From Chloroflexota bacterium (GTDB lineage Bacteria > Chloroflexota > Anaerolineae > Anaerolineales > UBA4823), in the NCBI GenBank assembly GCA_012516075.1, contig JAAYXE010000099.1, positions 1 to 64,000 of the forward strand: a stretch of DNA of 64,000 nt. Direction: 5' to 3'. The translations under genes and the position numbers were made by a program. The notes under the pieces were generated by a model that was not told where the DNA came from, did no database searches, and was given only the letters and a program-made list of their open reading frames with translations. Every line of letters starts with the position of its first letter. Position 1 is the stretch's first letter. Positions 38,432 through 40,357 of the stretch are shown one piece after another.

Positions 38432-40357
38432 ATGCTGAAAAACCCCAGTGTACACGGTACCCGGCCGTTCACCCCTACGAAGCTCAAACTTCGCAACCCG
38501 GTGCCGTCGGATATCGAAATCGCTCAGGAAGCAGATATCAAACCCATAACCCAGATCGCAGAAGAAGTGGGTTTACTGCCCTCCGAACTCGAACTGCACG
38601 GGGACTATATGGCCAAAGTGCGGCTGGAAGTTCTGGAGCGGTTAAAAGACGTCCCGAATGGTAAATACATTGATGTGACCGCGATCACACCTACTCCGCT
38701 GGGAGAAGGTAAAAGCACGACGATGGTTGGCCTCAGCCAGGCGTTAGGGGCACACCTGGGGAAGCGCGTGTTCACCTGCATCCGCCAGCCAAGTCAGGGT
38801 CCCACTTTTGGCATCAAAGGCGGAGCTGCCGGTGGCGGTTACAGCCAGGTGATTCCCATGGAGGATTTCAATCTCCATCTCACCGGCGATATTCACGCCA
38901 TCACGGCAGCCAACAACCTGCTCGCGGCAGCCATCGATGCCCGGATGTTCCACGAGTCGCGCCAGAGCAACGAACAGCTGTTTGACGCACTTTGCCCTCC
39001 AAACAAAGAAGGAAAGCGCAAATTCTCTCCTTCCATGCTGCGGAGATTGAAAAAACTGGGGATCGACAAAACGGATCCCAATGATCTGACTGCAGAAGAA
39101 CGCGCGCGCTTCGCACGGCTGGATATCGACCCGGACAGCATTACCTGGCGCCGGGTGATCGATACCAACGATCGCTTCCTGCGCGAAATCACGATTGGCC
39201 AGGGCCCGGAGGAAAAAGGCTTTACCCGCCGGACCGGCTTCGATATTACGGTTGCCAGCGAAATCATGGCTATCCTGGCGCTGACCACCGACCTGGCCGA
39301 TATGCGCGAGCGCTTTGGCCGTATTGTGATCGGCACAAGCTGCGCCGGTGAAGCCATCACCGCCGAGGATCTGGGTGTCGCCGGAGCGATGACGGTTTTG
39401 ATGAAAGATGCCATCAAACCGACCCTGATGCAAACGCTCGAAGGCACCCCGGTCTTTGTACACGCCGGGCCGTTCGCGAATATTGCCCATGGAAACAGCT
39501 CCATTATTGCCGACCGTATTGCGCTCAAACTCGCCGATTACGTGGTGACGGAGTCAGGCTTCGGTGCCGACATTGGTATGGAAAAGTTCTTCAATATCAA
39601 ATGACGCTACTCCGGTTTTGTCCCCAATGTCGTCGTCCTGGTAGCCACGGTGCGCGCTCTGAAGATGCACGGCGGCGGCCCGAAGGTTGTGGCAGGTAAA
39701 CCGCTCGATTCAGCCTATATCGAGGAAAATCTGGACCTGCTGCGCAACGGCCTCTGCAACCTGGAAGCGCACATCAAGAATGCCCTGCGCTTCGGCGTAC
39801 CGGTCGTGGTTGCGATAAACTCTTTTGCCACCGATACAGAAGCTGAGATCGAACTGGTGCGCAAGGCAGCCATCGAAGCCGGAGCGGAGGATGCGGTGGT
39901 CAGCACGCACTGGATGGAAGGCGGAGCAGGTGCTGTGAAACTGGCTGAGGCGGTGGTCGCTGCTGCAGAAAAGCCGAGCAACTTCCAGTTCCTTTACCCG
40001 CTGGATATACCGATCAAAGAGAAGATCGAGATCATCTGCAAAGAGATCTACGGCGCAGATGGCGTCGATTATCTGCCGGAAGCGGAAGAAAAAATCGAAA
40101 CCTACACCCGCCTGGGCTTCGATAAGCTGCCCATCTGCATGGCCAAGACTCACCTGAGCCTGAGTCATGACCCGAACCTGAAGGGCGTCCCCAAGGGATT
40201 CCGTGTTCCCATCCGCGATATCCGCGCCTCCGTCGGTGCCGGGTTCCTGTACCCGCTGCTGGGCACGATGCGCACCATGCCCGGCCTGCCGACCCGACCG
40301 GTCTTCTATGACGTTGACCTGGATCTTGAGACCGGGCGCGTTGTCGGATTGTTCTAA
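38432..40357 (+). CDS. fhs: Formate-tetrahydrofolate ligase interrupted by an in-frame UGA
   Basis: The two parts together make a 641-codon enzyme that forms 10-formyl-THF from formate, THF and ATP. The architecture is the longer, eukaryote-like (MTHFD1 C-terminal domain) type. The P-loop is TPTPLGEGKSTT. Other motifs are QPSQGPTFGIKGGAAGGGYSQ, GDIHAI, RFARLDIDP, and after the break KTHLSLSHDP and RDIRASVGAGFLYPL. Codon 391 is TGA (39602-39604), in EKFFNIK-*-RYSG. Homologues carry Cys there (IKCRYSG). Frame, codon use and conservation continue for 250 more codons to a normal end. The UGA may be a nonsense mutation, a sequence error or recoded as selenocysteine. The start at ATG 38432 has AAGGTGAG upstream. 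Confidence 0.85.
39602..39604 (+). other. In-frame TGA at conserved cysteine codon of fhs
   Basis: The frame reads AAA-TGA-CGC where homologues encode Lys-Cys-Arg. TGA differs from both Cys codons (TGC, TGT) at one base, and UGA is also the selenocysteine codon. By eye I find no strong bacterial SECIS hairpin with a G-bearing loop 16-37 nt downstream. The best local pairing is GCTAC (39606-39610) with GTAGC (39641-39645). TGA is an ordinary stop elsewhere in the window, so a genome-wide code change is unlikely. Confidence 0.8.

Follow-up and report, generated by a model that had tools for sequence, protein, structure and literature searches.

The window analyzed here, the whole 64,000-nucleotide stretch at the start of a Chloroflexota contig, contains a formate-tetrahydrofolate (formate-THF) ligase gene, fhs, whose reading frame is interrupted on translation by a single internal stop, TGA at codon 391, and closes with a normal TAA. 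The pieces on either side, of 390 and 250 amino acids, give a contiguous match to the formate-THF ligase models NF010030-NF010032: in NF010032 the first stops at profile position 336 and the second resumes at 338, the family profile being matched along the whole of a frame that is uninterrupted except at this codon. A previous sequence-only reading of this DNA had described a TGA at codon 391 where the family has cysteine, followed by 250 conserved, in-frame codons and a normal end; translation, profile matches and the codons of relatives (see below) all agree with that description. The features of the locus are as follows:

38420..38427, forward strand: AAGGTGAG, ribosome-binding-site-like, directly 5' of the ATG (by eye)
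38432..40357, forward strand: fhs frame with one internal stop (translation; both pieces match NCBIfam models; no further copy found in the genome)
38432..39601, forward strand: the 390 codons that precede the stop, predicted to make up the truncated product (profile match)
39602..39604, forward strand: TGA in frame as codon 391, where Cys is conserved (translation; Cys in 79 of 80 and in 29 of 29 relatives)
39605..40354, forward strand: part after the stop, 250 codons, conserved and in frame (profile match, alignment)
39605..39671, forward strand: stretch in which a SECIS hairpin would be expected, none fitting the published model (best -0.2 kcal/mol, limit -7.5)
39617..39619, forward strand: TTT, encoding Phe 396, where all 189 of the other sequences have Leu (alignment)
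40374..40409, forward strand: terminator-like perfect 15-bp inverted repeat with a 6-base loop and a T-rich 3' arm (by eye)

The inverted repeat at 40374..40409 is not among the predictions of a terminator scan. By Pfam, an alpha-amylase gene lies upstream of fhs and tilS downstream on the other strand, neighbors that, on the Pfam evidence, have no functional relation to it. A 5S rRNA gene (window positions 49-165) lies right at the beginning of the contig.

The assembly to which the contig belongs comprises 4,864,838 bases in 199 contigs (97.06% complete, 6.18% estimated contamination). A search of this genome for a second intact fhs, a check that the sequence-only reading had proposed, found none: the interrupted gene is the single copy, and its relatives are intact. 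Among the best 120 of at least 7997 proteins scored in the protein database, the top relative is 90% identical, and there is none of the same species from which codon 391 could be read. C-terminal fhs fragments (at least 120 matches listed) start at many positions, with no clear sign among them of another UGA copy; the cluster of this genome's own fragment has three member sequences. One C-terminal fragment, P0125 (251 aa), begins exactly where the Cys would be, with a different sequence (MPHSGLVPN), as though the frame were broken nearby in another assembly.

The cysteine codon and the condition of the gene

Among the best 80 of at least 580 relatives from a contig search, most relatives being named Chloroflexota, the equivalent of codon 391 is TGC in 74, TGT in 5 and ACC (Thr) in 1. 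Within the family, cysteine is present without exception (29 of 29 relatives): 27 TGC and 1 TGT were counted by script, and the TGC of locus L125 was read by eye. The count was redone on both strands, with 108 of 109 loci read by script and L125, which fell outside the script's motif, read separately. In an alignment of 190 of the 194 sequences collected (forward-orientation loci only, four sequences dropped for length), this column holds cysteine in 188 of the 189 other sequences and threonine in one, and cysteine is also aligned here in two solved bacterial enzymes. The fhs UGA is therefore aligned with a conserved cysteine.

Among the genomes examined, it is seen in this one only. Across 400 genomes of the order, a pattern of the type EKFxxx(D/N)(I/V)K is followed by TGC or TGT in 285, the present genome not among them, and by TGA in one, which is the present genome. 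In a family set of 38 genomes, without other genomes of the genus, 35 have an fhs match and an internal stop occurs only in the genome studied here. Outside the present genome, then, the proposed search for the same UGA in relatives came back empty: for the set of 400 from the order, for the 35 matching genomes of the family, for the best 80 relatives and for the 29 family loci.

Two relatives deserve mention in their own right. The threonine codon (ACC) lies at L062:2998-3000, in a natural formate-THF ligase relative, which implies that a thiol (or selenol) is not strictly required at this position. In one family genome, G025, the fhs match is split between two places on a single contig (C1:491167-492384 and 426044-426607), with about 65 kb between them; this is a broken or misassembled gene.

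Codon 391 aside, residues 21-641 include one residue unseen in the 189 other sequences, which themselves average 2.4 (1.29 + 1.12), and depart from columns conserved at 95% in two places, the others again averaging 2.4 (1.34 + 1.06). Constraint is not clearly relaxed past the stop: the C/N ratio of non-synonymous difference is 1.22, compared with 1.12 (sd 0.10) in relatives, 2 of 16 of which reach as high a value (the 16 being those of the 29 family loci that are in forward orientation). With the remainder of the gene intact, the change is recent, or not present in the cell, or harmless. The coincidence of the stop with a Cys codon is only moderate: among 152 further single-base changes that would create a stop in fhs, 6 begin at such a codon.

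Selenocysteine machinery and the hairpin test

Could the UGA be decoded as selenocysteine (Sec)? The genome has SelB (on C113), tRNA-Sec (C92), SelA (C23) and SelD (C146), all above cut-offs. The earlier reading had suggested looking for selA, selB, selC and selD; with the full machinery present, a lack of selenocysteine genes cannot be held against the idea of a selenoprotein. Two other genes of this genome have in-frame TGA codons. That for SelD (C146:68267-69202, L128) has its TGA in TCAGUASK, with a model SECIS hairpin around GGUUC, and likely encodes a Sec-containing selenophosphate synthetase; that for the formate dehydrogenase alpha subunit, fdhA (C126:861-2942, L130), has its TGA in DHCARLUHSSTV, with the hairpin GUGGCC-GGUCU-GGCCAC. 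Both sites are presumably the usual Sec positions of their families, and the two genes offer a fair internal yardstick for fhs.

In a 2026 review (PMC13188914), the model for bacterial SECIS elements consists of an apical loop of 3-9 nt with G in its first two positions and an upper stem of 4-16 bp, 16-37 nt from the UGA and with an energy of at most -7.5 kcal/mol; a minority of known bacterial elements lie outside the model, according to that review and to PMC12013277. Scored against it by one script, fdhA reaches -12.9 and selD -15.7 kcal/mol, and both pass; fhs reaches -0.2, and no hairpin by its UGA fits. The sequence-only reading had likewise seen no strong hairpin here. A one-mismatch hairpin about nt 33-51 from the fhs UGA was considered as a SECIS element and rejected, folding at only -2.3.

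SECIS hairpins alone discriminate poorly. Of 600 Cys-codon contexts of this genome, drawn from 1797 in sampled long frames, 40% reach the -7.5 limit by chance, 13.5% match the fdhA score and 6% that of selD; 62% of them, and 58% of 219 TGA ends of long frames, do as well as fhs or better. At such a rate of chance passes a passing hairpin would mean little, and fhs is without even that. A looser hairpin score, by which fhs is equaled or exceeded in stability by 92 of 95 relatives and by 87% of 300 Cys contexts, was dropped in favor of the published model: 30% of the 300 contexts reached selD, leaving it no discrimination. By plain folding, the 50 nt from the UGA give -7.7 in fhs, whereas 108 relatives average -14.7 and 106 of them are more stable. 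Some known SECIS elements being outside the model, a small residual probability for Sec stays.

Origin of the stop

Other genes of the assembly are interrupted as well. A scan of the window and 600 kb of sampled contigs for stops with in-frame coding on both sides gave 36 candidates including fhs, and 20 of the other 35 were put through Pfam. Two of these proved to be clear interruptions; in eight the sides belong to different families and represent adjacent genes, six are matched on one side alone, three have no match, and for one (L187) the match extends as far as the stop and no further. Among the 15 further candidates, 14 have an ATG no more than 10 codons past the stop, which gives them the look of adjacent genes; in L183:14213 there is no ATG so placed. 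The first clear interruption is an ABC transporter gene on C132 (L189:7281, reverse strand), whose single in-frame stop, a TAA in AHRL*TVRNADRI, comes 47 codons ahead of the frame end; this stop is past the ABC_tran Pfam match and within a PDB alignment that spans it. The second, a glycogen-debranching-type gene (PF06202) on C155 (L170:3011 and 2780, reverse strand), has an in-frame TAA and TAG, further frame breaks seen by eye and a weak PDB match (E about 1e-4); it is likely an older pseudogene or an error-rich stretch, and a weaker parallel to fhs. Selenocysteine cannot explain TAA or TAG stops, and where such lesions occur elsewhere in an assembly, a lesion at a Cys codon is unremarkable, the fhs case having been picked for looking special.

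The UGA at 39602-39604 is very probably an ordinary stop that arose by a one-base change at the Cys codon, rather than a site of Sec insertion. In favor of this are the lack of a SECIS fit, the occurrence of UGA in 1 of 400 genomes against Cys in 285, tRNA-Sec as the sole UCA tRNA found, a weaker fold than in 106 of 108 relatives, the two genes interrupted by TAA or TAG, and the presence of FolD with no CdhC found. Counted against it are the full Sec machinery, the two other UGA genes, the family-conserved Cys codon, the absence of clear relaxation past the stop, the existence of SECIS elements outside the model and their poor discrimination.

If the change is real, translation would end after 390 residues, and the truncated product, without residues 391-641, would probably be inactive. 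The cell could plausibly manage without the ligase: FolD, an alternative route to 10-formyl-THF, is present in the genome and CdhC was not found there, which suggests that losing the enzyme would not necessarily kill the cell. That the stop is a young loss-of-function mutation of this kind has close to an even chance.

The ordinary stop may also be one of the assembled consensus rather than of the cell, through a base error or a strain mixture, the living cell having a Cys codon and a whole enzyme; this is a serious possibility, if short of an even one. The assembly, with its 199 contigs and 6.18% estimated contamination, and the similar single stop (TAA) in the ABC transporter gene are consistent with it. 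So is the position of the one residue unseen in the 189 homologues, Phe 396, five codons past the UGA: a pair of anomalies no more than 18 bases apart, in a gene that is clean elsewhere, hints at a local base error. Independent changes could look alike, however, and phenylalanine is also aligned at this position in solved bacterial enzymes, so that Phe 396 may be a true substitution. The sequence by itself cannot separate a young mutation from a consensus base error, and the caveat of the sequence-only reading, that a one-base change and an assembly error would look the same, stands.

Some other form of translation past the UGA is improbable. Conservation persists past the UGA, the sole point for near-cognate readthrough, and GTG 39650 opens a 235-codon frame from which a restart might yield a two-piece enzyme; such a restart would, however, omit 15 conserved codons after the stop. 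Cys-type opal-suppressor tRNAs reportedly occur in other bacteria. Here ARAGORN, run on stretches around Rfam hits, gave 48 distinct tRNAs, including one tRNA-Cys with GCA and one that it left unnamed; the UCA anticodon is found among them only in tRNA-Sec, and a suppressor tRNA was rejected as reader of the UGA.

Least probable, and very improbable, is a true selenocysteine formate-THF ligase, produced by a lineage-specific Cys-to-Sec switch in which SelB decodes the UGA through a SECIS class not described by the published model: the machinery and the UGA/Cys pair within an intact frame speak for it, but the fhs site fails the model that fdhA and selD pass, the UGA is in no other genome examined, one natural relative has threonine, and the enzyme is an ATP-dependent one-carbon ligase, not a redox enzyme. 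The sequence-only reading had named selenoprotein, readthrough and pseudogene and had leaned toward the first; of the checks that it proposed, those on Sec genes and on a second fhs come out in favor, those on the UGA in relatives and on the hairpin against. No Sec form of formate-tetrahydrofolate ligase or formyltetrahydrofolate synthetase appears in titles or abstract openings of literature on both topics; the words "tetrahydrofolate" and "ligase" are absent from the main texts of PMC13188914 and PMC12013277, and "tetrahydrofolate" from PMC1794560.

Comparison with known systems

As an ordinary stop, the UGA carries little weight beyond annotation, and the case illustrates that UGA paired with Cys, in a genome that uses Sec, does not suffice for calling a selenoprotein. 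Were the Sec reading true after all, fhs would be a selenocysteine-containing ligase without a redox role whose SECIS element the known model does not cover, and specialists would find this surprising.

Three known systems may be set beside the gene. As a formate-THF ligase (FTHFS, fhs; PF01268, NF010030-NF010032) it is typical in that the whole frame matches on both sides of the stop and relatives are up to 90% identical (among the best 120 of at least 7997), and atypical in having TGA for Cys at codon 391 and Phe for Leu at 396. With the genome's own selenoprotein genes, fdhA and selD, it shares an in-frame UGA and a genome that has selA, selB, selD and tRNA-Sec; unlike fhs, they have hairpins that fit the SECIS model. 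Compared with single nonsense lesions, whether young pseudogenes or consensus errors, it differs in that its stop is a UGA on a Cys codon in a Sec-using genome, but it resembles them in that a lone stop breaks a gene that is present once and is intact elsewhere, with the ABC transporter gene of the same assembly as a parallel.
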